Made by a program: the position numbers and the translations under genes. The notes under the pieces are model-generated. The model saw nothing but the letters and a program-made list of their open reading frames with translations. It made no database searches and was not told the origin of the DNA. A stretch of 64,000 nucleotides of DNA from Geosiphon pyriformis (taxonomy: Eukaryota; Glomeromycota; Glomeromycetes; Archaeosporales; Geosiphonaceae): the NCBI GenBank assembly GCA_016748015.1, contig JAAOMT010000566.1, positions 293,579 through 357,578 on the forward strand, written 5' to 3'. This document shows positions 17,593 to 64,000 of the stretch, one piece after another; positions within the stretch are counted from its first letter, which is position 1, and the number at the start of each line of letters is the position of its first letter.

Positions 17593-18228
17593 TTAATAGA
17601 TTGCATGATTGTTCACTAAGTATTTTTTTATTTTCTGATTGATTGTATCACTAAATTGTTTTAGTTTGAAATCCAAGTCAGATGATTCTTTCATTACTAA
17701 ATTAATGGCTTGAACATGGTTGGCTTCAGACTCAGCAGATTTGAAATCTCTGGCATGTGTAACTGTGTCTTGAAGGGTGTCTGGATGTGACAGACATATA
17801 TGTTGCAAGATGTTGCTGTGCAGACCACAGATAAACTGGTTGAGGATTTGTGGTGCTGTAAAATAGTTGGCATCAATTGCTTGGATTTGGCACAGATTTT
17901 GATAGAAACGTCTCAAGTAAGTAGTAACTGCTTCTGTTTCTCCTTGTTTCATAGTGCTAAATGTATTGGCTAACCAGTTGATACTGTTATTGTTGCTAAA
18001 GTATCTTAAAAATCCCACTTTGAAGGCATTGAAGTCTTGTGGTTTATTAATCAAGCTCTGATACTATGAATTGGCAGTATTCTTAAGAAAGTAGAGAATG
18101 ACTTGCATTGCTCAGACGTCATTCCATCCATTAGCTGCGATAGCTTTTTCTATGTCATTCAGCCATACCTGAGCATAGTTCTCTTCGCCAGTAAAATTGT
18201 CAAGTTTTGTGATTGGTGCATAAGCCAT
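17593..18228 (-). pseudogene. Gyp1 Gag capsid-like region
   Basis: From a conserved Met codon at 18228 (MAYAPITKLDNF) the frame encodes the retrotransposon Gag core: WLNDIEKAI…NGW, a hydrophobic ILYFLKNTA segment, then an intact 153-codon part (18054-17593) with FLRYF, TYLRRFYQ, QFICGL and a helical tail. A TAG replaces a conserved Trp near 18090. It would form the particle shell. The Met aligns with Met codons at the same boundary in Gyp2 (29476; 62359) and Gyp3 (48915). Confidence 0.75.
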
Positions 18229-18726
18229 TGGATCTAAGTTGAGTTGTTGTGGTGGCTGTTGAAGCAGTTGTTGTTACATGAGTTGTTGAGATGGTAGTTG
18301 AAGTGGCTGCTGTATGGGTTTGGCTATTGGATTAATCAGTGGTTGATCAATAATGATTACTGGAGGTAAGTTTTGTTGATTTATTAAATCAGGGTTTCGA
18401 TTATCCTGAGTTGGCAGTGTCTGAATATTTGAAGTTTTGATTTCCAGATTTTTTGGATTTAGATTTTACTGTGTTTGAGAATTCAGAGTTTCAAATTCCA
18501 GATTTTCAGCAATCAGGTTCTGGTAAGTGAATTCTTGATCCTCAGCTTTTTCTTCTTCCTCTTCTTCTGATTCTGTTACTTTTTACAGATCAGAAATTCT
18601 GAAATCTGGGGGAGGTGGTGGCGATCAGAGTCCTGATAGCGTTGATGATCACGAATTAAATCCTTCAAAATACGTGCCATATGGTCCTAATAACTCTGCT
18701 TTCCTTTGCTTACTTTGAAATAAGAA

Positions 18727-19221
18727 TCATCCAAATGCTGATGTCGTGTTTGATGTGGTCACACCAGTAGATGTAATATTAATGGCACTTCTGGGTGTAT
18801 AGTGATATGATGGATTAGTTGGGGACTCAACTTTTGTTTTCTTCCATGTAGGTGGTTGTATTTTTTTGGGTATTACTGCTGGTGTTTGCAGTTTTCCTTT
18901 GCCTTTGCTTGCATAAGTAATGGGGTATCTTTGTTGTGTATGATGTTTAATTTCTTTGTTGATTTTTGTGATGATGGAGGCCAAATTGTGATTTGTTAAC
19001 AGGTTGGTATTTAGAATTAATTCACTGTAAAAGGCTTTTCTTGCCAATTTAATATTTATTGGTGTTCCTAACAGATAGACAATTCTTTCATTGACATAGA
19101 AATTAAAAGCTGATTCCACTGATATGTGGTTGTGATTTAATCCCAAATGTTGACAGTAGTGTTGAAATAAGAATTTTGCAAATCCTAGATGGTTTGCTCC
19201 TATGTTTTCTGATTCTGCCAC
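18727..19221 (-). CDS. Gyp1 Gag N-terminal domain, GUG-opened
   Basis: 164 codons open from GTG (19221-19219). The only in-frame codons back to the upstream TGA contain no ATG, and no methionine codon follows inside this stretch. The signature FYVNERIVYLLG…YSEL aligns with the equivalent domains of Gyp2 and Gyp3. It is followed by a basic Pro/Thr-rich tail. The function is unknown, and I recognise no named domain. The GTG has A at -3 and G at +4, a strong initiation context. Confidence 0.65.
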   Translation of the reverse strand: MAESENIGANHLGFAKFLFQHYCQHLGLNHNHISVESAFNFYVNERIVYLLGTPINIKLARKAFYSELILNTNLLTNHNLASIITKINKEIKHHTQQRYPITYASKGKGKLQTPAVIPKKIQPPTWKKTKVESPTNPSYHYTPRSAINITSTGVTTSNTTSAFG

Positions 19222-19254
19222 TTTTAGATTTGTGTTGGTGCTGGTTCTCTGTAA

Positions 19255-19280
19255 AATTATATCTCACAGAGAGCACCAAA
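19255..19280 (-). other. Gyp1 primer binding site
   Basis: Two bases after the 5' LTR the - strand reads TGGTGCTCTCTGTGAGAT, beginning TGG as expected for pairing with a tRNA 3' CCA end. Gyp2 has TGGTGCTCT at the same place. I cannot name the primer tRNA. Confidence 0.7.
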
Positions 19281-20154
19281 TGTTACAGGTAACTATTTCT
19301 GGTGTTGGATTAAGTAACAAACCCATAACTTGGTGCTCAAATCTAGTTGCAATTGATAGTGATCTGAAGGTTTGTGTCTGAAGAGTTTGTATCTGAAGGG
19401 TTTGGTTGAGTTCTTTGTATAATGGACAGAAATTTAATGGTAATAGTTTTATCTGTAGCTTCCCGAAACCACAGTTTCATCAATTTCTTTCTCAGCTTGA
19501 TGGCTGGTATTCCTCCTGGTAAGCTATTCTTAATCGAGTGTTCTACTCTTATTTCTGGGTCTTTTACCAGTTATGTTTATCTTGACATCAGTACCCCATG
19601 CATTAATCCTTAATAGAGTTAGTAAACAACAATAAAATCAAAGCAAAAAATAAAGAAAAAAAAAGAAAATAAAGAAAGAAAAGAAATAAGCCAAGGCAAT
19701 TTGCAAGTTAGTATTCTGTTAATAGCCATGATCAAGAGCTATTGTTCCAGTATAGTTAAGTATCAATTACTATCAACATGAAATGTTGATAGTGGCAGCA
19801 GATTTGAGATAATAAACAGTTATTTATTTGTGGTTTGGAAAGTTGTTTAGATGAAATCTAAACTGAGAGATCTGTCTTTTTAGCTTCTAATCCTACTGCT
19901 ATATATACATAATTGAGATTCCTCAATTCCTCAATTCTTCACAACAGAAATTCTGGGATTCCTGGAATCTTGCAATTCCTTTGAGAAGAATCCTGAAATT
20001 CTGGAATCCTGTGATTCCTTGTGAGAATCCTGTAATTCCTGGAATCCTGCAATTCCTGAGAGGAATCCTGGAATTCCACATTTTACTACGTTTACTTTTG
20101 ATTGGTTAATAACTATGCTAATATATATTCCCTATATTTTTATGAATAACATCA
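19281..20154 (-). repeat. Gyp1 5' LTR
   Basis: An 874-bp LTR, TGATGTTATTC…GTAACA on the - strand (TG…CA). A TATA-like TATATATAG lies near 19905-19915. Upstream of it in U3, at 19930-20085, is an array of short near-palindromic units (GGAATCCTG and AATTCCT alternations) that is longer than in the 3' LTR. Confidence 0.9.
19930..20085. repeat. Palindromic short-repeat array in Gyp1 U3
   Basis: Repeated units of the form (G)GAATYCTG / AATTCCT, each near-palindromic, just upstream of the TATA region in transcription direction. The partner LTR at 10690-10785 holds a shorter version, so copy number changed after insertion or during copying. Confidence 0.7.
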
Positions 20155-27525: not shown

Positions 27526-27935
27526 TAACAATAAAATCTAATTATTATGTATTATAATATAATTTGATCTCATTTTTTGCTGCTGGTACTTTTGTTGATG
27601 ATATAATTTGGGTTGGTAATAGCCAAACTACTATACAACACATTCTTAATGTTGCAAATAAATTTTTTAGGTTTAATGACATTTCCATCAATAATGACAA
27701 AACTGTGGCCATTATTACCAGACAAAATTAGAGATATTATTTAGCATGAAATTATCTTATAATTCCTATCATTAATTAGCATATATTATCGTTTCAAATG
27801 ATCACTTATTACATTAGCAAAAAAAAAAATGTCCGAAATTATCATTTAATTAATAACCCAAATTGTACACAACACAAATGTAACCTAATTGCAATGATCA
27901 ATTATGCAATATCCCAAACTATGTAACATTCAAAA

Positions 27936-28048
27936 GTTCACCGAAATTTGTAGAAATTCACCGAAATAATTGATAGTTTACCGAAAAATTTAATAGTTCG
28001 CCGAAATAATTTGTAGTTCGCCGAAATGTATCTTTAGTTCAGTAAAAT
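27936..28048 (+). repeat. 20-bp-phased GTTCGCCGAAAT array in Gyp2 U3
   Basis: Units start at 27936, 27956, 27976, 27996, 28016 and 28037. Comparison of both LTRs suggests the ancestral unit GTTCGCCGAAAT. It lies 50-165 bp upstream of the TATA box, so it may be an activator or repressor binding array. Confidence 0.75.
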
Positions 28049-28098
28049 TGTAGAAAATAGCAAAGTTCAAGTTCATAAAATAGTGTTACGACAAGTTG

Positions 28099-28105
28099 TA
28101 TAAAA
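28099..28105 (+). promoter_or_regulatory. Gyp2a TATA box
   Basis: TATAAAA, conserved at 36987-36993 in the 3' LTR and at 54811-54817 (reverse strand) in Gyp2b. It presumably sets the transcription start a short distance downstream. Confidence 0.65.
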
Positions 28106-28700
28106 GAAGAGCTTTTCTCTTCGAGAAAATGTATTTTACTTTAGATTTATCTCTTAAAACCGTTCCTATACACACAAAAAGAAATAAATATCAAATAATT
28201 CAAAAAAACCAAATTCTTTAATTATTGTACTTGGAAAATCTCCAAAACCCAACTAATGTTTTGAAATTGATTAGCTACCAATTTCAGTAAACTGTTAGTG
28301 ACTCCAGGCCTGGATAGAAAACGTTTCCCTTAACAGAATTCTATTTCTTTTATATTTCTTTTATTTTCTTTTCTTTTTTTATTACAATTATTAGGGTAGC
28401 CTACAGACAAGATTCCTGTAGAAGAGTCGACTTTCACAGCAAAGTAACTACACATTTTTAGTGAGCTTCCAGATGAGCAATTCCTGGGAAAGAGTTGACA
28501 TTTACTACAACATAACTACATAAAGCAACTGGCATGGAATTGGCCATTCCACTTATAAGCCCAGCAAGTTCAAATTATAGGAGATAATTTGAAGATAAAT
28601 TCAGTTACTGAAGGTTCAACTACTTCCTGGAAACGTGAATTCACAACAAATCAACATTAACAACATTTAAGAAAAGAGACCAAAAACCTCTGGTAACATT

Positions 28701-28720
28701 TGGTGCTCTTCCACGGAAAT
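28701..28720 (+). other. Gyp2a primer binding site
   Basis: TGGTGCTCTTCCACGG, two bases after the LTR. The first nine bases are identical to the Gyp1 site. Confidence 0.7.
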
Positions 28721-28743
28721 AACACAGCAACAACAAATTCAAA

Positions 28744-30237
28744 GTGACGACCACATCAGACACAGCAACTCTAGAGTATTACCAGTCAATTTACACCCAC
28801 TGCAAACAAAGATTCAACATTCCAGACGGAATTGAAGTTGTCAAGAAATCAGTATATCAATACATTGAAAACCACATCAACAATTATCTTTTTGGAAATT
28901 ACAATATCTCAAAAGTTAGAAGCAACCTTTACAATAATTTAGCACACTATTCACAGTTGGGAACTGAAGACCTTAACAGTAAAACACTTGCCATTTACTT
29001 TCACAAACTTAATTTTAACATTATCAAGTACTGTAAAGAAACATATCTAGTGCAGTCTTAATACACTATTGATTTTGAATTGAAAACAGAAACAAGCAAC
29101 AAAGGCAAAAACAAATTGAAACAATATTCACAAACCACCCCAAATACTCTAATACTACCAAAAACAACTGCCATACATTTACAAACACCTGAACAAGGAA
29201 CCAGTTCAAAATTTCCACTTACTATCACATCTTTTCCAGCTTTACTTGCACAAGCACAAACACCTAATTTACCCTTAAATCAATTTACAAGACCAGAAGA
29301 TTTTACATCACTCAGAAGTCCCATTAGACAATGAAAACCCCTTCAAACTAGTTCCAATCTTCTTGACTTTCTAGCTGAAGATCAAAGTGAAAACTCTGAG
29401 ACAGCAGCAAACGAAGAAAACGAACCTGAAATATCTGAAGAAGAATCAATAGACAGTGAAAACGAAGAAGACGAAATGATAACATACATCACAAAAATCC
29501 CTAAATTTAATGGAGAAGACATTAAGACCAGTCCTCAAGAATGGCTCAACCAAGTTACTAAAGCCAGAGATGCAAATGGGTGGAATGCCACCAGAATGTT
29601 AAGAACAATTCCCTACTTTCTCAAAAGAACAGCAGGAGAATGGTTTGAAAACCTGGCCATCTCATTCAATGATTGGAATGCTTTTAAAGCAGCCTTCCTT
29701 GAACAGTTCACTGACAATAATACTTCTATCACCCTTCGTAATCGTTTTCAAAATATCAAACAAGAACCCTCCGAATTTGTTATGATTTATATTGGGAAAT
29801 TCAACAAACTTCTCAGACAAATTCGCCAACTCAAAACAAATGATTATTATTCCAATGCTCAAATCCTGGATCAATTTATCACTGATCTAAAAGATAAACT
29901 AATTAAAAAGATTCATCCACATGCTCCAGAAGATTTGAACTCTGCCATCCAACATGCAAAAAGATACGAAATGGCTATGGAAGAAGCCAATCATACAAAA
30001 CTTGTAAATTTGGCAATTGGAGAAACCAGCTCAGCAGCTGAGGAAAAAATTGACCAACTCACAAAGAAGGTCGAAAACTATTTTACCAACCAACAACAAC
30101 AACAATCCCAAAGATATCAACCACTCCAAAGACGAAATCAAAATAACTTTGCACTACTTTCCAATAACCAGCCCCAGAATTGCCATTACTGTGGAATCTC
30201 TGGCCACTGGAAAAGAGATTGCAGAAAGCTACAATGA
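28744..30237 (+). pseudogene. Gyp2a Gag (N-terminal domain, core, zinc knuckle)
   Basis: Opens at GTG 28744 in the context AAAGTGA, with no in-frame ATG before it. The N-terminal domain (YIENHINNYLFG…YNNL) is followed by a Thr/Pro-rich linker and acidic stretch. Met 29476 (MITYITKI) starts the Gag core (WLNQVTKA, YFLKRTAGEWFE, FLEQFTDN, YIGKFNKLL, QFITDL). The zinc knuckle CHYCGISGHWKRDC (30181-30222) ends it. Stops at 29059 (TAA) and 29332 (TGA) are sense codons in Gyp2b. The unbroken core ORF spans 253 codons. It forms the particle and packages RNA. Confidence 0.8.
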
Positions 30238-34240: not shown

Positions 34241-34329
34241 CTAAATGCAAAACAAACCCGATGGACAAGATTTTTAGCTAACTACTGATACATTGTACAC
34301 CACAAACCAGGAAAACTCCATACCAATGT

Positions 34330-35797
34330 CAATTGTCTCTCAAGAATAAGGCAAGATTAGAAAACAAAAACCAACACCTATTTGAATCAACAGTATCAAA
34401 ACAACAAACAATGAACCCCGAAAACTACAACAATCTTAGACAATATCTGAAGACATTAACAATCCCAACAGATTGGTCTTCAGATGAAAAACATCAGTTA
34501 CAACAACAAGCCAAACAATACTTCTTACACAACAACATTATCTACTATCGAAACTTTAGAAACCCAGACAGTCCACTCAGATTAATACAAGAACATGAAA
34601 AAAAAACTATTTTATACAACATGCACTCAGACCTTTCATCAGCACACTTCGGAAAAGACAGCACCACCCAAAGAACACTAGAATACTACTTTTGGCCTCG
34701 AATGAAGAAGGACATTCACGAATATGTCGAATTTTGTGATAGTTGTCAAAGAAGAGGAAAAACTTGCCCTACAGAACCTTTAAATTCAATCAAAGTTGGA
34801 CAGCTTTTTGACAGAGTTGGTATCAATTTAGTCGGACCACTACCTATCACAAACCAAGGAAACCATTATATTGCAGTAGCTGTAGATTATCTCACCAAAT
34901 GGCCCGAAACCAGAGCCATCCAGTGAGCAGATGTGAAATCAGTAGCAAATTTCATCTACAAAGACATCATTTGTAGACATGAATGTCCAATTGAACTTTT
35001 ATCCGATCAAGGAACACATTTTGTGAACAATCTAATTCAAGAAATTTGTGAACAATTCAATGTCAAGAGACCTTTATCTTCACCCTACCATCCACAAACA
35101 AACAGACTTGTGGAACGTTTTAACAGAACATTGTGTGAGTCATTGGCCAAAGTTTCAACCAATTTTGAGCAAGAATGGGATATTTTTATTCTATCAGTGT
35201 TACTAGCATACAGAACACTAAAACAAGATACCACAAAATACACACCATTTGACTTAGCCTATGAAAGGACAGCAACATTACCAATCAATTTTACTGTAGA
35301 ACCATATCCAGTGCAATCAATCAACAAAGAAAACTTTCAGGAAACACTTCAACAAAGAGCTTACACTCTTCTCAGCACATTGGAAGAAAAATGACAAATA
35401 GCAACCACCCATATTAGACACTCCCAAACTCAACAAAAAGAATGGCATGACAACAAACTGCCACCAGTTACCAATGAATTTAAAGTTGGAAACAAAGTTC
35501 TCTTACACAGAACTAAAGCTGAAAAACAATGGAGTGGAAAATTTGAAAATAAATAGGATGGACCATTCTTTATCCATGAAGTCCTAGGCAATGGATCATA
35601 CAAGCTAAGACTTGATGACAAAATCCTAGCAAAAGTTGCACATGGAGATCGTTTGAAACACTATCATTTCAGAAACAATCCTAAACCATTAATTTCACAA
35701 ATTGGTACATATTCCCCTTTAGTCAACTCTGAAGATATTCCCCAAAACTTAGAACCAATAGTTTTCATTGAACAACCTTCCAACCTGAACACTTAAT
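34330..35797 (+). pseudogene. Gyp2a integrase
   Basis: Zinc-binding HHCC domain (HSDLSSAHFG…CDSCQRR), then the core. The first catalytic Asp is replaced by Asn (VGINLVGPL), while the second (LSDQGTHF) and the Glu (NRLVERFNRTL) remain. Two long parts, 34333-34926 and 34933-35394, are separated by one TGA. A GPY/F module (WSGKFENK-stop-DGPFFIHEVLG) follows. No chromodomain is apparent after it. It would insert the DNA copy; inactive here. Confidence 0.85.
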
Positions 35798-35912: not shown

Positions 35913-36632
35913 ATGACTATTCCTCAAAACATTTAACAATTATCCCAAAAACTAATGTTAGCTTTAAAAACAATACCCGAATTATCCATTACTGTTACTG
36001 GAAACCACATTAATTATACCCAAACAGAAGTAATTACAAATTTAGCCCCAAATTCACGAAAATATCATCCGTATAAGAAGAACACAAGAAGTTATACTGG
36101 AATTCACCTGCCAGAACTTTTAAAGCTTGCTTTAAGAGAAAACCTAATGCTCATCCCAATTAGTATTCTACCAAATACTACAATTTAACAAAGACTTCAA
36201 TTGTGTCTCAATAAAGAAAACACTGAATATCCTCCAATCTATAGATATTTTCACATTGGAAAAACACTCTACGAATAGAAACTGGAACTTACAACAGCAA
36301 ATCTTACAAAAGAAGCTATCCAGAAACAACTCCACAACAAATTCAAGACAACAGCGGGATCAACAAACAGTTATTACAGGCTCAGAGCTGCTCTTAGACT
36401 TTATGATCTATTCTACACCTGTGAAAACATACTACAAAACCCAATTTTTCAACCTTTGAAGATTCAATACATTGGAAAGCTCACAGAACTAAAATTTCAA
36501 CAATTTTCAGACCAAATTTCTTCAATAATTTTGGATTATTATCTGAAAATGACAGACAGTACTTGGACTTTGATGGAGCTTAGTCTTGAGGAGGAAGTTA
36601 TATTACCAAATGAAATTAGAGATATTATTTAG
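35913..36632 (+). pseudogene. Gyp2a ORF3, unknown 239-codon protein overlapping the 3' LTR
   Basis: From ATG 35913 the frame runs exactly 720 bp to a TAG at 36630-36632, 30 bp inside the 3' LTR. Three in-frame stops (near 35932, 36187 and 36277) all correspond to sense codons in Gyp2b, whose ORF3 has the same length and start. The sequence has short hydrophobic helices (ELLKLALRENLMLIPI), YRYFHIGKTLYE, YRLRAALRLYDLF and an acidic end (LEEEVILPNEI). No signal peptide, clear membrane span or known domain. It occupies the env position but does not look like an envelope protein. Confidence 0.7.
36589..36598 (+). other. Gyp2a polypurine tract
   Basis: GAGGAGGAAG immediately upstream of the 3' LTR. 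It lies within ORF3 and encodes its Glu-rich end. Confidence 0.7.
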
Positions 36633-37586
36633 CATGAAATTATCTTATAATTCCTATCATTAATTAGCATATATTATTGTTTCAAATGATCACTTATTAC
36701 ATTAGCAAAAAAAAAAATGTCTGAAATTATCATTTAATTAATAACCCAAATTGTACACAACACAAATGTAACCTAATTGCAATGATTAATTATGCAATAC
36801 CCCGAACTATGTAACATTCAAAAGTTTGCTGAAATTTGTAGAAATTTGCCAAAATAATTAATAGTTCACCAAAAAATTTAATAGTTCGCCAAAATAATTT
36901 GTAGTTCACCAAAATGTATCTTTAGTTCAGCGAAATTGTAGAAAATAGCAAAGTTCAAGTTCATAAAATAGTGTTATGACAAGTTGTATAAAAGAAGAGC
37001 TTCTTTCTTCGAGAAAATGTATCTTACTTTAGATTTATCTCTTAAAACCGTTCCTATATACACAAAAAGAAATAAATATCAAATAATTTGAAAAAACCAA
37101 ATTCTTTAATTATTGTACTTAGAAAATCCCCAAAACCCAACTAACGTTTTGAAATTGATTAGCTACCAATTTCAGTAAACTGTTAGTAACTTTAGGCCTA
37201 AATAGAAAACGTTTCCCTTGACAGAATTCTATTTCTTTTACATTTCTTTTATTTTCTTTTCTTTTTTTATTACAATTATTAGGGTAGCCTACAGACGAGA
37301 TTCCTGTAGAAGAGTTGACTTTCACAGCAAAGTAACTACACATTTTTAGTGAGCTTCCAGATGAGCAATTCCTGGGAAAGAGTTGATGTTTACTACAACA
37401 TAATTACATAAAGCAACTGGCACAGAATTGGCCATTCCACTCATAAGCCCAGCAAGTTCAAATTATAGGAGATAATTTGAAGATAAATTCAGTTACTGGA
37501 GGTCCAACTACTTCTTGGAAACATGAATTCACAACAAATCAACATTAACAACATTTAAGAAAAGAGACCAAAAACCTATGGTAACA
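36601..37586 (+). repeat. Gyp2a 3' LTR
   Basis: 986 bp, the partner of 27713-28698. Many of the differences are CG in one copy against TG or CA in the other, or CA against TG, which implies an ancestral CG at those positions. Confidence 0.95.
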
Positions 37587-42175: not shown

Positions 42176-42314
42176 TAAACTTCTTTCTCTTCTTCATTCA
42201 AAATTCTCGAAAAAGAGTCTATAGTTTTTTCGAAAGAAGTTTTTTACCATTCAATACAATAAATCAAAACTGTTTTTTGATTACAAGACCACTGTTGGTT
42301 CTGTTATTGCTGTT

Positions 42315-44114
42315 ATGAAGAAGACCATTAAAGCTTCTGGTTCTGAGGGTGGTTTCAAGACTGTTGTATCAAGGAGGAAGAAGAAGAAGGGTGGTGTGTT
42401 GGAAAAGAGTATTGATAATAAAAAGATTACTGCCAAAGTTCTTGGCACTCGTTCATGGGGTTCTAAGACTGGTAACACTACAGAATCTGAAAGTATAGAC
42501 ATAGAGGAAAAATGCTTGGTTGAAAAAACCAGTGTAGACTATGATGATAATAGTACTTTTGCAGGAAGAAATCCTGATCAAACACCAAAGAGTTTGTATG
42601 TGAAGACCAAAAAAGTATTAGGGAAGCCACTGGGTGTGATTGATTATGATACTGTCAATGCAGAAGATGATGTGTTGGATGATTCTCTTCTTTTCCCACC
42701 TCCTCTTCCAGCCAAACTGTCCATTCAAGTACCTGTTCACAAATCTTTCACTTTAGATATTGATCTGGTAGTGGTGGCTGGAAAATCCTCTTATAAGAAA
42801 GTCAATTTTGTCAGAAGAATCTTTTTAGGAGTAAATGGTTTTGGGGGGGCCTCTACTCCCTCAAAATTTGGTGGAATCATCCAGGCATCTTTCACTTCTG
42901 AAAAGGCGATGATGGCAGTTGTACAATTGGCAAATAATCATGGTGTTGTGATAAACACCAATCTTAAGCGCCCCATCAACAATCGTATGAATCGGGCAAT
43001 TGTGTTAAAAGAAATTCCTGTGGGAACTTCTATTGAGACAGTGTATGCAGCCATTTCTGAATTTGGGGTTATTAAGTCGATCAAGATGCAGTTGGTGGGT
43101 CTATGGCAAAAGGCGATCATCAAATTAGAAGATCAAATTCAGGCTGATCTCTTGGCAGCTGAGTGGTCCATCCTTATTGGGAAAGATACAGTGCGTGTGG
43201 CCCAGGCCAATGTTGACAAACAAATGTGGGATGCCAGAGATGAGTTTAGGGCTTTACTTTATATTCTTTCCATGGACACCAATGCTTATGATCTTTGGGA
43301 CTTCATTGGTTTAGTTGGTTGGAAAACATGTGTTATTGAGTGCAGTTCTGTCAGTTATGTCCGAGCATGCTGTGCTACTGTGTGCTTTAATTCTGAGAGT
43401 AGTCTTATTCAGGCAATGGCAAACATTCCTGTTATAAAAAGTGTTGGTCTCCAATAGTCTCATTTAACCATTGCACTGTGCTCAATTTGCAAAACTTTCA
43501 GTCATACTTCTCTCGCTTGTTGTACTGCTGGTGTGTCTTCAAGTCCTAGGAGCAAGAAAGCTTCTTTCTCAGTTCAGGATTAGTTCCATTTGGCAAAGAT
43601 ATATGAAAAAAAGTCTGCCCCTGTTTCTTGTCTTTTGGCTTTCAGTGGAAAAACTTGGGCTTCCATGGTTGGTAAACCACTCCCAATAGTGTCTTTTGGT
43701 GGTTCAGCTCAATCTGGTTCCATATCTTATGGTAAATCTCTCCCGACTGTTAATGGTAAATCGGAAAATTGTTTGAAGAATATTGAAAGCAGTCTTGTCA
43801 GTCTTGCGAGACAAATTAATGAGTTGGCTAAGAGGTTGGACTCATTCATGTCAGCAGTTTTCCAGCCTAGCCCTGGATGTCAGCTGTCGGTGACCCCCCC
43901 ATCACAGAATCAAGAGGAGGATATAGTAATGGGAGTGAGTTTGGGTGATGCCACTAGTGACAAGACTGCTGCCATTTTTGGTTCAACTGCCTCACCTGAG
44001 GTTGTGAAATTGGAAAACATGTTGGAAGGTCTCTCTGCTTTGGTCATAAGCCTATCAGCGCGCTTGGATGGTTTGGCTTTGGCAGGTGGTGCTCTTCCTT
44101 TCCCTCTTTCTTAA
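42315..44114 (+). pseudogene. LIN-C ORF1 (RRM-like, zinc knuckle, coiled coil)
   Basis: One frame of 600 codons from ATG 42315 to TAA 44114. It is unbroken to 43457, where a TAG stands in place of a conserved Trp. The N-terminus is lysine-rich (SRRKKKKGG). An RRM-like fold region lies around residues 215-290 (VLKEIPVGTSIETVYAAISEFG then SIKMQLVG). The zinc knuckle CSICKTFSHTSLAC (about 43483-43524) is an intact C-x2-C-x4-H-x4-C. Near the end, leucine-heptad stretches (SLVSLARQINELAKRL) suggest oligomerisation. Role: binds LINE RNA in the RNP. Confidence 0.8.
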
Positions 44115-44129
44115 TAAATGGTCTAATAT

Positions 44130-47076
44130 AGAAAATTGCTACATGTAATGTTCATGGGTTGAACAATCTTGTGAAGCAAGATGATGTTATTCATAGGCAT
44201 AAGGATATGGACAATTTGGTTTCTATTTTTATGAAGTCAAAGCTTAAAGGGAAAGTTTGCCCATGGTTGGCTGACAAATTTAATGGTGTTCGGGTTTTTA
44301 CTTCTGGTCTGAATTTTGGTTCTTCAGATGCTGAGGTGTTAATCATCGTGAATTCTTTTTTAGCAAAGCATGTTTACAAGATTTCTAAGGTGCCTGGTCG
44401 GCTCTTATCTATTAAGTTGCTTTTCAAAAATAAACTTTTGGTGTCTATTTTGGGGCTCTATGCTGGTGCCTCATCAGTGGCTTGATTTTCTTAGGCTGGT
44501 GAGATCAACTTTCTCATTGCTAAAGCCATTAATGAGTCTTCTTTTGTTATTCTTGGTGGTGATTTTAATGAGGATGATTCATACAAATATGCCAGCTTCA
44601 AAAAATATTTTAATTTGGGTTTGATTAACTCTCTGGAGGGGAGTTCTTTTGTAAAGTTACCTACTTGATAAAATTTTTGTGGTATCACTAAAACAATCAA
44701 CTATGTGTTTGTTTCTTCTAATTTGGTTGGTACAGTCATGGATCATGGTGTGGATGGTATTGTAAAATATTTTGATACCAATCACAAGGCCATTTATGTT
44801 TTTGTGGAACTGGGTGGCCTGTTCAATGTCTAGCTGAATTCACTGTGCAAACAAGCTAATAGAGATTGTTAGAAATATAATATCAAAAATGCCAGTGAGA
44901 TTAAGTAATTGGAATTCAGGAATGCTACAGCTGCTAATACTGTTATGTTTTCAGATGAGTTTGTTGCGGCTAAGCAGTTTTCTGATCTGGATGCAATGTG
45001 GAATATTGTTTGTAAGATTATAGTTCTTTCGGCTGGTAAAATGTTCAAGAAAAAATGGTTTAAGAGTTTTGATTGTGTTTTTAATAAGATATCTTCTTGG
45101 TTTCATAGACTGGAGCTACTTGTATTTAAACTGGTGAAGGCTTCTCGGTTGGTTTCTGGTGGAGATTTTGCCTTGTTGTGGGATACTTAGAACAGGCTTG
45201 ATTTTGTGAGTGCTTCATCAATAAAAGCTCTGTTTCTTTCTGGTGCCAGTTTTGATGCGATCTGTTCTGGGCTGGCTAAGGCAAGGAAGTCTTACTGCTC
45301 TTCTAAGTTATTGGAATCTAAGCATGCTGAAGAATCTCATATAAGGCAGGCTATTAAGAGGAGAATGGAGAGTTTTGAGGTGAATAAGGGTCACACCATT
45401 AGAAGTGTTTTGAAGTGTCCTTTTCATAAAGTGGTGTTAGATCATTTGGTAGATAATAGGGAGTTGGTCTTGGAGCCTGATTTGGTTAAATCTAAGGTGG
45501 ATGGGATCATAGAGGGTTGGACTAAGAAATATGTAGTGGCTTCTGATATCTTTGGTAATTGGGCAAGGCAGTTTTGGCCTTTGAATCATGTTTTCGATGA
45601 TGCCTTCTCTGATGTAATGCATTCAATCAGTTTTGATGAAATGTTTGGTGTTATTTCAAATTTGCCTAATAGGAAAGCGGCTGGTCTTTCTGGTATCACT
45701 AATGAACTTTGGAAACACTGTGACAAGTCAGTCTTGGATATGCTTTTGGTGCTCTTGAATTTTTGTTTAGATTGTGAGTTAGTGCCTGGACCTTGGAGGG
45801 AAGCCTGGGTCTCAATGATTCCTAAACCTTATGAGTGGGAAGGGGTTCTTACAAATACCTGCCCTATTGCTTTGATTGAAACAGCTCACAAGATCTTTTC
45901 CAAGATTCTTTCAGATCGGATCTCTTTGGCTTGTAGCACTTTTGATGTTCTCTGTGGGGACAATTTCTCTGTTCTGAAAGGTACGTCTACTCATTCACTT
46001 ATCTTTGCTATTGGTTCAGTGATTAAAGATGCTTTGGAAAAGGACTGAAAGTTGTGGCTGGTTTTACAGGATATGCACAAAGTCTATGATTCTGTTAGTT
46101 GAGAGCATTTCAAGAGGAGTTTGATCAGGGTCAAAATGTGTGACAAATTTATCAGATTTTTTAGTAGCATTCATAATGGTCACACTAACAGAGTGATGAC
46201 AGATTTTGGTTTAACTAATGAATATCATGTTCATAATGGATTGGATCAGGGAGAGGTTTTTTCACCACTTCTCTGGCACATATTTTATGACTTGCTTTTG
46301 TGTGAGGTTAAGAAACAGGAAAGCATTTGTGGTTACAAGTTGATTTCTTATTTCGTTTCTAAGACTGGCCAGGTAGAATCTCAAGTTGAGTTGACATTGT
46401 TTCTAGCCGCTAGTGCTTTTGTTGATAATACTATCTGGGTCAGTAGCAGCCAAGCTGCTACACAACACATCCTCAATGTTGCTAGTAAGTTCTTTTGTTT
46501 AAATGACATTTCGATAAACAATGACAAAACTGTGGTCATTCCTATCAACTGTCAGGTCACTGCTCCTTACCTAACTATCAGTGATATGCCAATTTCCATC
46601 ATTAAAAGAGGTGAATTTTATTATTATCTGGGTATTTTTTTATCTTCTGATAGTTTTTCGAAGTTTAGCTTGGTTAAGACGCATTTGAATGTTTGGTTTT
46701 TTGTCAATCTCATTTTGAGAAAAGTTATTTCGGATAAACAGTTTGCTTATTTGGTGTCTTTAGTTCTCTTTCTTATCGTCAGCTACAGAATTCAATTCAG
46801 TTTTATTCCTTTTAGTGTGTGTAATAAATGGGATGCTTTGATTCATAAGAGCCTGAAATCCAAATCTGAGTTGCCTTTGGACTTTCCCAATGATGTACTT
46901 TATCATTCTTCCTTGTACAATTTAAAGACTTTTGAGCAAATTCAGGCTGAAAGCAAGTTGGCTTCTGTTATTGCTTTTGCGAATTCGGTTGGTGTTTTGA
47001 GTTGCTTGTTTTCTCATAGGTCTCACAATCTTCAGGTTCTCAGCTGGCGTCCTTGTTATTCTTTGTTGTTTCCTGT
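44130..47076 (+). pseudogene. LIN-C ORF2 (endonuclease, RT), truncated
   Basis: APE-type endonuclease begins KIATCNVHGLNN and carries LGGDFNEDD (near 44555-44580) and TNHKAI. RT shows LSGITNELWKH, the catalytic DMHKVYDSVS region (near 46075), GLDQGEVFSPLLWHIFYD and FVDNTIWVSSS, where one of the two catalytic aspartates is Asn. Long open parts are 45206-46048 and 46121-47089; the last 13 bases of the second already belong to the Gyp3 LTR. RNase H is missing because of the Gyp3 junction. Confidence 0.85.
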
Positions 47077-47952
47077 TGTTACGGTTTAAGAATTTAGCAA
47101 AAAAAAGAATCATAAAAATAATACAAACTATTTAATCATAATATAGCACAGTAATAATCTTAGAAAGGTAATGATTAACATAGTAGCAAACACCATCTTG
47201 CAATAGTGGTAAGCACCAGTTCACAATAGCAGCCAATACCAACTGGTGATAGCAGCAAACACCAGGTTGAAATATCAAAAAAAAAGTATTACAATGTGTT
47301 TTTTCGTAGAACTACAAACATGTATATATACAGTAGTTTTAATATTGAGAAATAATCAATCAAGTAATAAAAATCATAACTTATTAAGTAATAGATCCAA
47401 TTTTATCCAACAAACTCTACTTTAAATCATACTTTCAAATTAAATATCCCAAAAAACCTTTAAAATCAAAAAAAAATGAAAAAGAATATTTAAAACTGAA
47501 CTATCACAACCCAAAGTATTAAGAAACTTATTTGTATTATTTATTGAATGAAACTATCATTCATCAACTGAATCCCTTGGAAGAATAATCTTTGATCAAG
47601 ATTATTCACGTTGTTACTAATTGATAAAAGCTTTATTGTAAGAATTAGAAAAGCGCTAAAGACCATTAACATTCTGTGTTTCTAGATTAGAGAAACATAC
47701 CAGGCAATTGCAAGGATAGCCTCAGAAAAGACCCCAAACAGTGAGTAGATTTCAGTTCAGCCTTTGAGAAAGAGTACATAAACACACACAACAATCAAAA
47801 ATTGAAGAATAACTTACATCGCAACAAAAAAAAAGCCTTTAGTATAACAGTGACATTATCACACAAATAGAATTGAGGAACTCACAAAAGACTGATTGCA
47901 ATTAAAATGGGATATCAGCAATTAAATATAACAAGAAAACCAGCCCATAACA
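47077..47952 (+). repeat. Gyp3 5' LTR
   Basis: 876 bp, TGTTACGG…CCCATAACA. The left boundary is set by the break in LIN-C ORF2, the right by the PBS (TGGTGAACCCTACG at 47955). A TATATATA lies at 47323-47330. Upstream, 47190-47280 holds about three imperfect units ending 'caccag' (tagcagcaaacaccag type). Confidence 0.8.
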
Positions 47953-48035
47953 TTTGGTGAACCCTACGAAGAAAGAAAATCAAAAAAAAAAATAATAATT
48001 AACAATAATTCATTGCTAAAAAGGAAGAGACAAAA

Positions 48036-49720
48036 GTGGCAACAAAAACCCCTAATCTTACTGTTCTTGAATTTTGCTGTGCTATTTACACACAAAATCA
48101 AAGTGATCTTGGATTATCAGAAGGGTGTTGTCCAGCAGAATCTGTCCTTACTTATTATATTAACGCCAGAATAAATTATTATATAGGAAAGGAAAAAGAA
48201 CCACACGACGCAAAACTTGGATTGTATAGAGAATTATCACAATACACTACAAAAGAAGTAGCAGTAATAGCCACAACTATTGTCAAAATCCATCGAGAAA
48301 TTGAGCAATACACTAACAAAAATTTTCTAATATCCACAGGAAACACTAGGGAATGTGCCAACAAAACCAAAGAAAATTTAGAAACTAATCAGGAAAGTAA
48401 CCAGCAAAAACTAGAAACACCAGCTCAAACACCAAAGAAAACTGTCATTCAATCAATAAAGAAACAACGTATTTATTCACCAGAAGATAAATCATACCAT
48501 TTTTCACCAGAAAATAAGATACAAATTCCATTAGGAGCTGCATCATCATCAACATCAACTCCACAAACGCCAAGAACTCCTAGTTATACTGATAAAATTA
48601 AACAATGTAACTGGGGAGACATACCAATTACAAGAGGATATTCATTACTATTCGAAAACCCTCTTTTTCAGCCAAAATTTAGAATGGGGTTTGAAAACCA
48701 TGAAGAGGAGTCTGAATCGGAATCCGAAAAAGAGACCAGCAAAAAAACAATCACAAGACCAGTCACTAGAACAAGCAGCCAATCCAAAAACCAAGAAACT
48801 CGTGATCAAGAGGAAGAACCAGATATAAGGGAAGCCACCTTTAGGAACACTTAAGGAAATATCATCCCACCTCCTCTTAGACCAATAAACCCACCAGCAG
48901 AAAACGGCAACAAAATGACTACACCATACATTGCAAGACTAACAGATTTCTCAAGAGAGGAAGAAGAAACGGACATGTACATATGGCTCAGAGAAGCACA
49001 AAAAGCCATCCAGGCAAATAACTGGAATGACCAAAGAGCAATTCAAACATTACCTTTCTTCCTGAAAGGCACAGCTGACTCGTGGTATCAAAGCCTAGAA
49101 ACAAAACCCACGAGCTTCACCAAATTTAAAAATGCACTCCTGGAATATTTTAGCGACCCAAACGCCGTAATCCAATTACAGAACGAATTCAATACTATCA
49201 AGCAAAATACCAGTGAAACTGTCACCCAATATCTTGCTCGATTCAATCGAATTTGCCGTTAGATTGAAGCAATTGAACAAGGATACTACACTGATCCTTA
49301 GGTTTTAAATCAGTTTATTAGAGAATTAAAAAGCAGCATTTTAGGAAAAGTATGTCCTGCCCACCCTAATTCCTTATCAGAAGCTGTTACGCTTGCCAGA
49401 GCCCTTGAATTGGCTAAGAAAGAAGCTAACCATAGTTAAATGGTTAACATAGTAATGGAGGAAAATAAGACAGAAACATTAGAGAAAAGAGTAATGCAAT
49501 TAGGAGAGGAACTCTCTAAAAAAATAGAAAGTTACCTCATCCCGGATCCAAGAAAAAATACATACCAACCACCCCAAAGACGCAGCCAGGAAGTCAGTGA
49601 CAGTCGAAATAATTGCTCATTGCACCAGGAATTCAGAACAGAAACACGCGCCTGCCATTTTTGCAAATGCATAGGACATTTGATTAGTCAATGTCGAACA
49701 CGAATGATGCAGAAAGCACG
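48036..49720 (+). pseudogene. Gyp3 Gag (N-terminal domain, core, zinc knuckle)
   Basis: Opens at GTG 48036 (AAAGTGGC). The upstream in-frame TAA is ten codons before and there is no ATG between. The N-terminal domain YYINARINYYIG…YREL aligns with Gyp1 and Gyp2. The frame is unbroken to 48854. Met 48915 (MTTPYIARLTDF) starts the Gag core: WLREAQKAI, LPFFLKGTADSWYQ, LLEYFSD, TQYLARFNRICR. Stops at 49261, 49300 and 49437 look like Gln/Trp losses. The knuckle CHFCKCIGHLISQC (about 49651-49692) is intact. Confidence 0.8.
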
Positions 49721-51840: not shown

Positions 51841-51971
51841 GGTAATAATAAAATAAGAATTTCGCAAATTCTAAGTGATTTTCCCATGTTTTTTCTTGGT
51901 CTGTCACTTTCTTGCATGATTGTTGTTGGTACTGGTTCTCTGTTGGATTATACTTCACAGAGAGCACCAAA

Positions 51972-54217: not shown

Positions 54218-55203
54218 TATTACTGAAGGTTTTTGGTCTTTTTTTTTTAATGTTGTTAATGTCTGTTTGCTGTGAATTCACGTTTTTTGGATGTAGTTGA
54301 ACCTCCAGCAACTGAATTTATCTTCAAATTATCTCCTATAATTTGAACTGCTGGACTTATAAGTGGAATGGCCAATTCCATACCAGTTACTTTATGTAGT
54401 TACGTTGTAGTAAACGTCAACTCTTTCCCAGAAATTGCTCATCTGGAAGCTCACTAAAAATGTGTAGTTACTTTGCTGTGAAAGTCAACTCTTCTACAGG
54501 AATCTTGTCTGTAGGCTACCCTAATGATTATAATAAGAAAAATAAAAAAAAATAAAAAAAATGTAAAAGAAATAGGATTTTATCAAAGGAAGCATTTTCT
54601 ATTCAGGCCTGAAGTCACTAACAGATTATTGAAATTGGTAGCTAATCAATTTCAAAACTTTAGTTGGGTTTTGAGGATTTTCCAAGTGCAATAATTAAGG
54701 AATTTGGTTTTTTTGAATTATTTAATATTTATTTCTTTTTGTGTGTGTAGGAATGGTTCTAAGTGATAAATCTAAAGTAAGATACATTTTTTCGAAGAGA
54801 GAAGCTCTTCTTTTATACAACTTGTCATAACACTATTCTATGAACTTGAACTTTGCTATTTTCTACAATTTCGCTGAACTAAAGATACATTTTGGCAAAC
54901 TACAAGTTATTTCTGTGAACTATTAGATATTTCAGTGAACTATCAATTATTTCTACAAATTTCTACAAATTTCAGCAAACTTTTAAATGTTACATAGTTC
55001 GGAGTATTGCATGATTAATCATTGCAATTAGGTTACATTTGTGTTGTGTATAATTTGGGTTATTAATTAAATGATAATTTCAGACATTTTTTTTTTTGCT
55101 AATGTAATAAGTGATCATTTGAAACAATAATATATGCTAATTAATGATAGGAATTATAAGATAATTTCATGCTAAATAATATCTCTAATTTCATTTGGTA
55201 ATA
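54218..55203 (-). repeat. Gyp2b 3' LTR
   Basis: 986 bp, the same length as both Gyp2a LTRs. TATA box TATAAAA (reverse strand) at 54811-54817. The 20-bp phased array is present at about 54870-54985 in decayed form. Confidence 0.92.
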
Positions 55204-57489: not shown

Positions 57490-58901
57490 CTAAAGAGACA
57501 GTCAACATTGGTGTAGAGTTTTCCTGGTTTGTGATGTACTATGTATTGATAGTTTGCTAAAAATTCTGTCCATCAAGTTTGTTTTGCATTCAGCTGAGTA
57601 TTTTTGTTTTGAAGCCATTTGAGTCCAATATTATCAGTGATAATATCAAATTTTTTAGGCTTGAGATAAAGGTTGAAGTGGTGTAGAGCCCAAATTACAG
57701 CTGCTGTTTCTAGTTTTGTGGCAGGGTAGTTTCTCTCAGCTGGTTTTAATGTTCTGCTAGCATAAGCAATTATTTGCTCATTTCCATTGTCATCTAATTG
57801 TGATAAGATGGCACCAAAAGCAGTATACGAAGCATCTGTAGCTAGTCGAAATCAGTTGCTGAAATCCAAGTAGGCGAGAATTGGAGCTGTTGTCAGTTTT
57901 TCCTTGAGAATTTCAAAAGCTTTTTGGTGTTCGGTAGTCTATTCGTATTTGATGTTTTTGATGGTGAGCTGGTTGAAGGGTTTTGCAATTTCTGAGAATC
58001 CTTTGATAAACTTCTGATAGTAGGATGCTAATTCTATGAATCCTCTTAGTTCTGTAGTGTTTCGAAGAGTTTTGAAATTTTTGACAATGCTGATTTTTCC
58101 AGAGTCTGGTTTGATTCTATCTTTACTAACAATATGACCAAGGAAGATTAGGCTTGTTTTTCCAAAGTAGCATTTTTCGATATTGAGTTTTAGTCCTGCT
58201 TTTTGTAATCGTTGAAAAACTTCTTGCAAGTGTTTTAAGTGTAATTCGAATGATGGAGAATAAACATCAGTATTGTCAAGATAAACAACTACTGACTTCC
58301 AAAGAAGTCTTTGGTACACAACATCCATTAATTTCTGAAACATTGCTAGTGCATTGCATAATCCAAAAGGCATTACATTGAACTCGTAATTTCCGCCTTG
58401 GGTGGTGAATACTGTTTTGGGGCAATTTTTGAGATTCATAGCAACTTGCCAGTAACTGCTTTCTAAATCTAGTGTTGAAAAGTATTTGGATTTTCCAAGG
58501 GCATCTAACATGGCATCAATCCGAGGAAAAGGGTAGACGTCTCCAATTGTAATACTGTTAAGTTGTCGATAGTCAACACAAAATCAGATCTTTCCATTTT
58601 TCTTTTTAACTAATACTACAGGTAAAGCCCAAGAACTCATGGAGGGTTGGATAAGCCCATTGTTAAGCATTTGTTGTACTTCTTTTCAAATGAATTGGTG
58701 GCTTTCTGGAGCAACTTGATATGCTTGTTGTCTTCTTGGTTTGGCATCTCCTGTATAAATTTGGTGTTGGACCAAATTGGTTCTTCCTAAGTTATTGTTG
58801 TTTTCAGCAAAGATGTTGGCAAATTCTGCAATTAGCTCTTTGAGCTGAGTCTGTTGTTGTGGTTCAAATTGTCCCATGTTGATTCGAGATAGTTTTTCCA
58901 T
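57490..58901 (-). pseudogene. Gyp2b reverse transcriptase and RNase H
   Basis: Open parts 58901-58686 (RT entry) and 58511-57939 (RT core). The catalytic box reads VVVYLDNTDV, so one aspartate is Asn, while Gyp2a keeps YLDD. The TGA before FCVDYR (58586-58584) is shared with Gyp2a. RNase H follows, with TDASYTAFGAIL-like sequence near 57810. The RT frame is offset from gag by an indel between 59333 and 58901. Confidence 0.8.
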
Positions 58902-61599: not shown

Positions 61600-63091
61600 G
61601 TTGTAGCTTTCTGCAATTTCTTTTCCAGTGGCCAAAGATTCCACAGTAATGGCAATTTTAAGACTGGTTATTGGAAAGTGGTGCAAAGTTATTTTGATTT
61701 CATCTTTGGGGTGGTTGATATCTTTGGGGTTGCTGTTGTTGTTAATTGGTGAAATAGTTTTCAACCTTTTTTGTGAGTTGGTCAATTTTTTCCTCAGCTG
61801 CTGAGCTGGTTTTTCCAATTGCCAAATTTACAAGTTTTGTGCAATTGGCTTCTTCCATGGCCATTTCGTATCTTTTCGCATGCTGTATAGCAGAGTTTAA
61901 ATCTTCTGGTGCATGTGGACAAATCTTTTTAATTAATTTATCTTTTAGACCAGCGATAAATTGATCCAAGATTTGAGCATCGGAATAATAATCATTTGTT
62001 TCAAGTTGGCGAATTCATCTGAGAAGTTTGTTGAATTTCCCAATATAAGTCATAACAAATTCAGAGGGTTCTTGTTTGATATTTCGAAAACAATTACAAA
62101 GAATGATAGAGGTATTATTGTCAGTGAACTGTTCAAGAAAGGCTGCTTTGAAAGCGTTCCAATCATTGAATGGGGCAGCCAAGTTTTCAAACCATTCTTC
62201 TGCTGTTCCTTTGAAAAAGTAGGAAATTGTTCTTAACATTCTGGCAGCATTCCATCTATTTGCATCTCCAACTTTAGTAACTTGGTTGAGCCATTCTTGG
62301 AGACTGGTCTCAATATCTTCTCCATTGAATTCAGAGATTTTTGCAATGTATGTTGTCATTTTGTCTTCTTCGTTTTCACTGTCTATTGATTTTTCTTCAG
62401 TTATTTCAGAGTTGTTTTCTTCATTTGCTGCTGTCTTAGAGTGTTTACTTTGATTTTCAGCTAGAAAATCAAGGAGATTGGAACTAGTTTGAAGGAGTTC
62501 TTGTTGTCTGGTAGGACTTCTGAGTGATGTAAAATCTTCTGGTCTTGCAAATTGATTCAAAGGTAAATTAGATGTTTGTGCCTGTATAAGTGAAGCTGGA
62601 AAAGGTGTGATAGTAAGTGAAAGTTTTGAACTGATTCCTTGTTCAGGTATTTGTAAATGATTGGCAGTTGTTTTTGGTAGTGTTGGAGTATTTGGGATGG
62701 TTCTTGAGTATTGCTTCAATTTGTTTTTGCCTTTGTTGCTTGTTTCTGTTTCCGATTCAAAATCAATAGTGTATTGAGACTGCACTGGATATGTTTTTTC
62801 ACAGTATTTGATAATGTTAAAATTAAGTTCGTGAAAGTAAGTGACAAGTGTTTTACTGTTAAGGTCTTCAGTTTCCAACTGTGAATAGTATGCTAAATTA
62901 TTGTAAAGGTTGCTTCTAACTTCTGAAATATTATAATTTCCAAAAAGATAATTGTTGATGCGGTTTTCAATATATTGGTATACTGATTTCTTAACAACTT
63001 CAATTCCGTCTGGAATGTTGAATCTTTGCTTGCAGTGGATGTAAATTGACTGGTAATACTCTAGAGTTGTTGTGTCTGGTGTGGTCGCCAC
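61600..63091 (-). pseudogene. Gyp2b Gag
   Basis: GTG 63091 opens 358 unbroken codons (63091-62015). They hold the N-terminal domain (YIENRINNYLFG…YNNL), a Thr/Pro-rich linker, an acidic patch, the conserved Met 62359 (MTTYIAKISEF) and the start of the Gag core (YFFKGTAEEWFE). A TGA after NKLLR separates it from 61969-61742 (QFIAGLKDKL…). The zinc knuckle CHYCGIFGHWKRNC lies near 61640-61600. GTG-to-Met distance is 244 codons, the same as in Gyp2a. Confidence 0.8.
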
Positions 63092-63136: not shown

Positions 63137-64000
63137 TGTTACTGGAGGTTTTTGGTCTCTTTTCTTTAATGTTGTTAATGTCTGTTTGCTGTGAATTCAC
63201 ATTTTCTAGATGTGGTTGAACCTCCAGCAACTGAATTTATCTTCAAATTATCTCCTATAATTTGAACTGCTGGGCTTATAAGTGGAATGACCAATTCTGT
63301 GCCAGTTACTTTATGTAGTTATGTTGTAGTAAATGTCAACTCTTTCCCAAGAATTACTTGTCTGGAAGCTCACTAAAAATGTGTAGTTACTTTGCTGTGA
63401 AAGTCAACTCTTCTACAGGAATCCCGTCTATAGGCTACCCTAATGATTATAATAAGAAAAATAAAAGAAAATAAAAGAAATGTAAAAGAAATAAGATTTT
63501 ATCAAGGGAAGCATTTTCTATCCAGGCCTGGAATCACTAACAGATTATTGAAATTGGTAGCTAATCAATTTCAAAACTTTAGTTGGGTTTTAAGGATTTT
63601 CCAAGTGCAATAATTAAGGAATTTGGTTTTTTTAAATTATTTAATATTTATTTTTTTTTGTGTGTGTAGGAATGGTTCTAAGTGATAAATCTAAAGTAAG
63701 ATACATTTTCTCGAAGAGAGAAGCTCTTCTTTTATACAACTTGTCATAACACTATTCTATGAACTTGAACTTTGCTATTTTCTACAATTTTGCTGAACTA
63801 AAAATACATTTCGGCAAACTACAAGTTATTTCTGCAAACTATTAGATATTTCGGTGAACTATCAATTATTTTGGCAAATTTCTATAAATTTCGGCAAACT
63901 TTTAAATGTTACATAGTTTGGGGTATTGCATAATTGATCATTGCAATTAGGTTACATTTGTGTTGTGTACAATTTGGGTTATTAATTAAATGATAATTTC
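63137..64000 (-). repeat. Gyp2b 5' LTR, cut by window edge
   Basis: Begins TGTTACTGG on the + strand (- strand end …CCAGTAACA). Its first 864 bp match 54218-55081. About 122 bp should lie beyond the window if the length is 986. Confidence 0.9.

Follow-up and report, generated by a model that had tools for sequence, protein, structure and literature searches.

Gag proteins extended from a start codon other than AUG are seen, in the sources cited here, for retroviruses and domesticated gag genes only. In MLV, a CUG starts the extended Gag known as glyco-Gag (PMC5778647, PMC3542737), and gammaretroviruses, like the elements described below, are reported generally to lack AUG in the extension (PMC5778647). 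Two mammalian genes derived from Ty3/gypsy (Metaviridae) gag use comparable starts: PEG10 uses an upstream CUG as well as an AUG (PMC2800197), and CCDC8 starts at an upstream CTG, which restores an N-terminal domain (PMC11011659). Elsewhere, ORF I of RTBV starts at an AUU that is used by about 10% of ribosomes (PMC5902531, PMC3542737), and GUG starts are recorded for human parainfluenza virus 1 and Panicum mosaic virus (PMC3542737). Among fungi, cpc-1 of Neurospora crassa has a conserved non-AUG, in-frame N-terminal extension in which one codon shows a conserved A at -3 and G at +4 (PMC5487733). Full and short (p22) forms of Gag, as we propose here for Geosiphon elements, are described for Ty1 (PMC5408680).

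As judged from titles and abstract openings in the open-licence literature, no GUG-started Gag with dual start use is named for LTR retrotransposons. We analyzed a window of 64,000 nt of Geosiphon pyriformis DNA, for which it had been predicted that the gag genes of several gypsy elements open at a conserved GUG and hold a conserved AUG further in, so that two forms of Gag would be made. The window lies in a genome of 124.7 Mb, which was searched for further copies of these elements.

Elements and families in the window

The five gag starts belong to three Ty3/gypsy families of G. pyriformis, Gyp1, Gyp2 and Gyp3, in agreement with the original prediction of at least three. Gyp2 is present as two copies, 89% alike over 4.2 kb, with candidate GUG start codons at 28744..28746 (+; TTCAAAGTGAC) and 63089..63091 (-). 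The gag frame of the second copy is open for 358 codons from the GUG (62018..63091, -) and takes in the N-terminal domain, the linker and the start of the Retrotrans_gag core. The Gyp1 codon lies at 19219..19221 (-; CTAAAAGTGGC). A Gyp1-related element, 74% alike over 0.7 kb, has its GUG at 51905..51907 (-; GAAAGTGAC) and stops soon afterwards in that copy. In Gyp3, the third family, the codon lies at 48036..48038 (+; AAAAGTGGC), and the window copy carries an in-frame stop at 48852..48854 (+), which interrupts its gag frame ahead of the core.

Gyp2 elements are Ty3/gypsy (Metaviridae) LTR retrotransposons. Their Gag combines a Retrotrans_gag/Ty3 capsid domain with a CCHC zinc knuckle (Pfam matches in 29335-30234: PF03732, E 1e-10; PF19259, E 8e-7; PF00098, E 2e-4). 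The order of pol, from the two copies combined, is protease (30670-31890, first copy), RT (57942-58583 in the second copy, aligning to about 33251-33892 of the first), RNase H (33632-34237) and integrase (34282-35391); the pol genes of Gyp1 and Gyp3 were checked for protease only. The 5' LTR of Gyp2 (27713..28698, +) is 94.7% identical to the 3' LTR at 36601-37586. Further paired LTRs lie at 10052-10772 and 19281-20002, and at 54220-55081 and 63139-64000, the last member touching the window edge; pairs were delimited for Gyp1 and Gyp2 elements. Directly 3' of the 5' LTR is a sequence beginning TGGTG, a putative tRNA primer binding site. The sequences TGGTGCTCTTCC... (28701..28718, +) in Gyp2 and TGGTGAACCC... 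(47955..47972, +, about 80 nt 5' of the GTG) in Gyp3 resemble primer binding sites.

Several other features of the window were recorded. Past the Gyp2 protease there is a dUTPase-like match (PF00692, E 2e-5), and beyond it another match resembling a protease (Spuma_A9PTase, E 6e-4, slightly short of the cut-off); this latter match is found in Gyp1 too (E 4e-5). The stretches concerned are 32365-33117 (+) and 14031-14924 (-). A RhoGAP domain fragment at 4765-5238 (-; PF00620, E 9e-9) may mark a host gene amid the repeats. The stretches 21854-26385 and 42225-47089 (+) are related to each other, sharing two blocks, each about 1 kb long, with 71-73% DNA identity. One ORF there, at 46103-47086, matches RT weakly (E 2e-6, slightly short of the cut-off), and five other ORFs scanned in these stretches had no Pfam match.

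A conserved GTG at the head of gag

The motif AAAGTG[GA]C occurs nine times in the window, counting both strands, and five of these occurrences are the gag starts. All five starts read AAAGTG followed by GC or AC, as had been stated, and at each of them the stretch from the preceding stop to the GTG is free of in-frame ATG. The codon also has the favourable context claimed for it, with A at -3 and usually G at +4.

The constancy of the GTG, on which the prediction depended, extends to copies throughout the genome. We fetched 82 gag starts (8 Gyp3, 30 Gyp2, 30 Gyp1 and 14 Gyp2 variants) and located the start codon in 79, where it was GTG in 74, GTA in two, ATG in two and GTC in one; of the remaining three, L078 reads GTA, L074 is masked and L053 is altered around the site. 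The first three sets comprise 68 copies, and in these no in-frame ATG was seen after the last upstream stop and before the start position; L053 and L055, both of Gyp1, were out of register in the alignment. Exact sequence patterns searched genome-wide gave GTG in 503 of 528 matches for all families and ATG in 25, with no CTG or TTG; copies that depart from the pattern in any other way, for example by GTA, fall outside these counts. By family, there were 397 GTG and 23 ATG in Gyp2 (no CTG or TTG), 49 GTG of 50 in Gyp3 and 57 of 58 in Gyp1, the single exception being ATG in each of the latter two. GTG is a minor choice among the other valine codons of the same frames (1/24, 8/64 and 6/31 in 18 chosen copies), so its conservation at this position is not due to chance, and its third base has been kept though synonymous sites are near saturation.

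The rare ATG codons at the start position fit ordinary G-to-A decay. In Gyp2, a control G-to-A change at a nearby non-CpG G gave 56 matches, compared with 23 for ATG, so that the 23 need no special explanation. The copies bearing ATG are also spread over several local haplotypes. ATG in younger copies, which would have spoken against a GUG start, was therefore rejected as an account of them, on grounds of haplotype and frequency and not of measured age.

Selection and a shared domain downstream of the GTG

The frame from GTG is under purifying selection, as judged from the pattern of codon substitution. Over the first 105 codons, dN/dS among six Gyp2 variants was 0.08-0.21 in 12 of 15 pairs, the other three not being computable because synonymous sites were saturated; when this DNA was translated in either of the remaining frames, the values were 0.54-3.27. 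In Gyp3, the N-terminal domain of the long Gag takes up about 105 codons (48036..48350, +) and has profile matches to both other families. Profiles were made from the first 115 residues (28 Gyp1, 42 Gyp2-type and 8 Gyp3 rows, one Gyp1 row having been dropped for stops). Gyp1 matched Gyp3 with E 8e-9 and Gyp2 matched Gyp3 with E 8e-6; the match between Gyp1 and Gyp2 (E 0.006, probability 6%) would, taken alone, make a weak case for a link. The matched stretches begin at residues 12/11 (Gyp1-Gyp3), 4/5 (Gyp2-Gyp3) and 12/10 (Gyp1-Gyp2), which puts a related domain at nearly the same short distance from the GTG in otherwise distant families. The profile E values and dN/dS together uphold the view that the domain is conserved across families and its frame translated.

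AlphaFold predicted four helices for the N-terminal domain (mean pLDDT 65); the extension as a whole was modelled as helices together with a linker of low predicted order. Both models are of low confidence (mean pLDDT 65 and 47). A Foldseek search of PDB and BFVD with these low-confidence models of the domain gave a best E of 3.2 and nothing at E <= 0.001, and no matrix protein was named among the matches listed; Pfam searches with the domain gave sub-threshold matches only. At the protein level, all 105 of 105 Gyp3 matches were to Geosiphon, as were all of the best 120 of 371 Gyp2 matches. The best match of the window Gyp2 Gag frame was 88% to a Geosiphon pyriformis protein, and that of the L004 frame 100%.

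An AUG-free region ending at the Gag core

The inner methionine codons singled out at 48915, 29476, 62359 and 18228 are all ATG and in frame with the GTG, and this core AUG is conserved in the copies of each family. In Gyp3 it lies at 48915..48917 (+), at +879 from the GTG; it is ATG in 8/8 copies, and no other ancestral ATG, whatever its frame, comes between it and the GTG. The Gyp2 codon (29476..29478, +; +732) is ATG in 28/30 copies and ATA in 2/30, and its counterpart in the second window copy lies at 62357..62359 (-). In Gyp1 (18226..18228, -; +993) it is ATG in 25/29 and ATA in 4/29, and stands in a weak context with C at -3. We scored an ATG as ancestral when the triplet was ATG in 50% or more of the copies and either ATG or ATA in 85% or more. 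By this measure, the first ancestral ATG after the GTG is in frame 0 at the Gag core in all three families.

The absence of AUG begins well before the GTG. From -450 in the leader to the core AUG, a region covering 47586..48914 (+) in Gyp3, 28294..29475 (+) in Gyp2 and 18229..19671 (-) in Gyp1, there was no ancestral ATG in any frame in a total of 3,939 nt for the three families. The 3,750 nt downstream of this region held 38, the three core AUGs included, and the Gyp2 core AUG is followed by seven further ATG within 120 nt, counting all frames. Under the same scoring, the control triplet CAT occurred 59 times in the region and 43 times downstream (Fisher P 9e-12 against CAT), and the anagrams TGA, GAT, TAG, AGT and GTA occurred 219 and 168 times (Fisher P 2e-13); neighbouring sites are not strictly independent and both P values serve as guides.

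Some Gyp1 copies do contain ATG in this region, and we judge these to be born of decay. Excluding CpG sites kept in fewer than 20% of copies, CG was lost in 35, 60 and 70% of alignment cells in Gyp3, Gyp2 and Gyp1, compared with C-to-T changes of 3, 9 and 13% at other C and changes of 0.6, 2 and 4% at A or T. Such fast CpG decay turns ACG into ATG or ACA, while an original ATG becomes mainly ATA, and in the alignments these two kinds of site are readily told apart. Four Gyp1 positions, +252, +541, +579 and -105, read ATG more often than any other triplet (19, 19, 17 and 20 of 29 copies); we judge all four to be decayed ACG, from the ACA or ACG found in other copies, although at -105 (20 ATG, 9 ACA) no ACG copy is left to prove this origin. 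The fast decay at CpG, seen in copies L001-L068, is as expected from DNA methylation, and ATG born from ACG may also disturb the translation of decayed copies.

Synonymous shuffles of single copies gave a mixed result. In four Gyp3 copies, out-of-frame ATG was short: of 300 shuffles, between 2 and 19 gave an equally low count. There was no clear out-of-frame shortage in ten Gyp2-type copies, where only 1.0-3.3 were expected, or in four decayed Gyp1 copies. The absence of AUG before the GTG means that ribosomes can reach the GUG. Its absence in all frames after the GTG is what would be expected if ribosomes also scan past the GUG to the core AUG, as leaky scanning to a second start predicts.

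Leader structure and alternative explanations

Further upstream, the leaders contain AUGs that open uORFs of mostly 5-44 codons. The transcription start was placed from TATA-like motifs only. In Gyp2, an AUG at -615 lies near the start expected from TATAAAA at about -650 (26 matches in 30 copies). Gyp1 has uAUGs at -558 and -508, 3' of a TATA-like stretch that lies near -690 (21 matches in 29 copies). The uAUGs of Gyp3 at -560 and -488 are 3' of TATATATA, near 47323 in the window copy, a sequence not found at one consistent place across Gyp3 copies; the most upstream uAUG of this family, at -716, is at a TATA-like run. With short uORFs in the Gyp1 and Gyp3 leaders, scanning needs reinitiation or a later transcription start. 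The LTRs also contain long pyrimidine tracts, at 19590-19720 (-) in Gyp1, where a TACTAAC-like motif follows, and at 28345-28425 (+) in Gyp2; they look intron-like or may be part of 3' end signals. We considered and rejected the leader as a shunt structure, since R-U5 folding gave z of 0.16 to -1.96 in eight copies (a ninth held N), with no strong stem. A general stimulating hairpin at +12 to +60 was likewise rejected, as it reached -6.6 to -8.6 kcal/mol in three Gyp1 copies only and -2.6 kcal/mol or weaker in five Gyp2 and Gyp3 copies.

In GenBank, the models for these loci (G9A89_..., Geosiphon) have 5' exons that are not the same in different copies, and it is from the GTG residue onwards that most of them coincide. 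At that residue, the 93 recognised Gyp2-type models among the best 120 of 371 matches have V in 76, M in 13, L in 3 and I in 1, and the 47 recognised among the 105 Gyp3 matches have V in 41, L in 4 and M in 2. Among the matches listed (P0001-P0225), 117 of 140 recognised gag models thus carry Val at the start position. With Val there, each model carries an added 5' part in which an ATG is found, and these parts differ between copies; they look like attempts to find a missing ATG.

Other near-cognate codons occur in the open stretch upstream of the GTG in 25/42 Gyp2-type, 8/8 Gyp3 and 25/29 Gyp1 copies. The commonest in Gyp2 are GTG and TTG, 14-15 codons upstream and within the primer binding site; those of Gyp3 are ATT and AAG, and those of Gyp1 are ATA, ATC and ATT. 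Between the stop and the GTG there was none in 14/14 of the Gyp2-type copies with seven or fewer open codons upstream (14 of 42), and the GTG at the head of gag is the only start candidate common to all families.

The GTG would be an ordinary internal valine codon if a spliced subgenomic RNA brought in an AUG from the LTR leader. For an exon within the element to do so, its donor would have to fall inside a uORF, and the acceptor would have to come after the last in-frame stop but before the GTG. Gyp1 offers candidates for both: a donor-like GTAATT stands 9 nt past the conserved uAUG at -558 in 19 of the 24 copies with this uAUG, and is also seen in the window copy, and a YAG acceptor-like site ending at -28, present in 25/29 copies, would join it in frame. 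In Gyp3, AG (not YAG) stands at -12 and -6 in 8/8 copies and the -716 uORF contains GTR in 4/4 copies where found, but YAG is absent from the acceptor interval in 8/8, and GTR occurs in the -560 and -488 uORFs in only 1/5 and 0/4. The -615 uORF of Gyp2 lacks GTR in 21/27 copies. A spliced AUG is thus unlikely as a common explanation; the spliced 5' exon that had been named as a threat to the GUG start seems unlikely on this anatomy in Gyp2 and Gyp3, and possible in Gyp1. The pyrimidine-rich tracts of the LTRs and the use of 5' exons in GenBank models would favour splicing, but the variation of those exons, with agreement from the GTG residue on, does not. Splicing also leaves unexplained the conservation of AAAGTG, the lack of AUG in the putative intron and the further lack of AUG after the GTG. 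Overall we consider it unlikely, if the foremost of the alternatives.

Slightly less credit is due to a single long Gag made from the GUG, with the core Met internal and the lack of AUG a matter of composition. The small out-of-frame shortage in Gyp2 and Gyp1 shuffles agrees with it, but a composition effect sits poorly with ancestral ATG counts of 0 and 38 over all frames, with anagrams at normal density, and with the return of ATG immediately past the Gyp2 core AUG (8 in 120 nt). A little further down in probability is a long Gag that starts at another near-cognate (AUU or AAG in Gyp3, AUA or AUC in Gyp1, GUG or UUG in some Gyp2 primer binding sites) or by internal or shunted entry. Such codons are present upstream in many copies, and short uORFs in a long leader resemble the arrangement described for RTBV (PMC5902531); against this stand the Gyp2-type copies that have no such codon, the fact that the GTG at the head of gag alone is common to all families, and the unremarkable folding of the leader. 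Least credible, and in our view very improbable, is that the short AUG-started Gag is made alone and everything upstream is untranslated leader. The lack of AUG by itself would suit a long leader, but purifying selection specific to one frame from the GTG on, and a protein domain common to the families, would not be expected of one.

Proposed translation of two Gag forms

We propose instead, with a probability of a little under 0.8, that the genomic RNA of Geosiphon Ty3/gypsy elements gives rise to a long Gag from GUG and a short Gag from AUG by leaky scanning. Scanning ribosomes would enter at the 5' end and pass along the R-U5 leader and primer binding site, the last 450 nt or more of which are free of AUG, and reinitiation after the leader uORFs may be part of this path. 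Some would initiate at the GUG in its strong context and produce a long Gag consisting of the conserved N-terminal domain of about 100 residues, predicted to be helical, and a long linker before the capsid core. The remainder would cross 730-990 nt without AUG to the in-frame core AUG and there begin a short capsid-nucleocapsid Gag. We infer both the use of the GUG and the leak past it, and by analogy with described systems the long Gag would be the minority product. Our best guess is that it is perhaps a minor matrix-like or assembly-controlling subunit. The original suggestion of two Gag forms is supported in that a selected frame without AUG opens at the GUG, a conserved AUG stands at the core, and ATG is absent from all frames between them.

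Comparison with known systems

MLV glyco-Gag resembles Gyp1-3 in that a non-AUG, in-frame upstream start yields an N-terminally extended Gag. The MLV codon is CUG, however, and the extension has a signal peptide and its product is glycosylated. Whereas the MLV extension is about 90 residues long, those of the Geosiphon Gags are 244-331 residues. The likeness drawn here is one of start-site use only and does not extend to a membrane-targeted long Gag. PEG10 and CCDC8 share the virus family of the Geosiphon elements by origin; they differ in being single domesticated mammalian genes with described extensions of 34 and 70 residues, and the cited passages on them mention no long AUG-free stretch such as that found here. 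RTBV, as described, has about 900 nt without AUG inside its ORFs and leaky scanning to later AUGs, similar to the arrangement in Geosiphon, but its downstream ORFs encode separate proteins and entry is by shunting, whereas the Geosiphon elements have one frame with two starts. cpc-1 is likewise a fungal case of a non-AUG, in-frame N-terminal extension, but in the account cited it is a host regulator with several alternative near-cognates and uORF control. Ty1 is a copia-type element whose long Gag starts at AUG; an RNA with an internal start gives rise to its p22, which restricts transposition. What appears to be new is that a conserved GUG, a long N-terminal domain and a lack of AUG in all frames are combined, and this in several Ty3/gypsy families within a single fungus.

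A broader interpretation, which we offer as speculation and regard as rather doubtful, is that a ratio of two Gags coded by start codons is basal and long conserved in these fungal Ty3/gypsy lineages. The weak GUG would then yield a minority of long Gag, with a minor, matrix-like or RNA- or membrane-tethering role, and selection would have kept more than 1.1 kb of the RNA clear of AUG in every frame, allowing most ribosomes to get to the capsid AUG; the CUG starts of PEG10 and CCDC8 would be relics of a strategy common in Metaviridae.

If the proposed reading is true, a GUG start would explain why automatic Geosiphon gene models have differing 5' exons. An absence of AUG in all frames that ends at an in-frame AUG may provide a simple signature for hidden N-terminal Gag domains in other genomes. 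Several families of LTR retrotransposons in a fungus would then share a conserved Gag that begins at GUG and makes use of two start sites.
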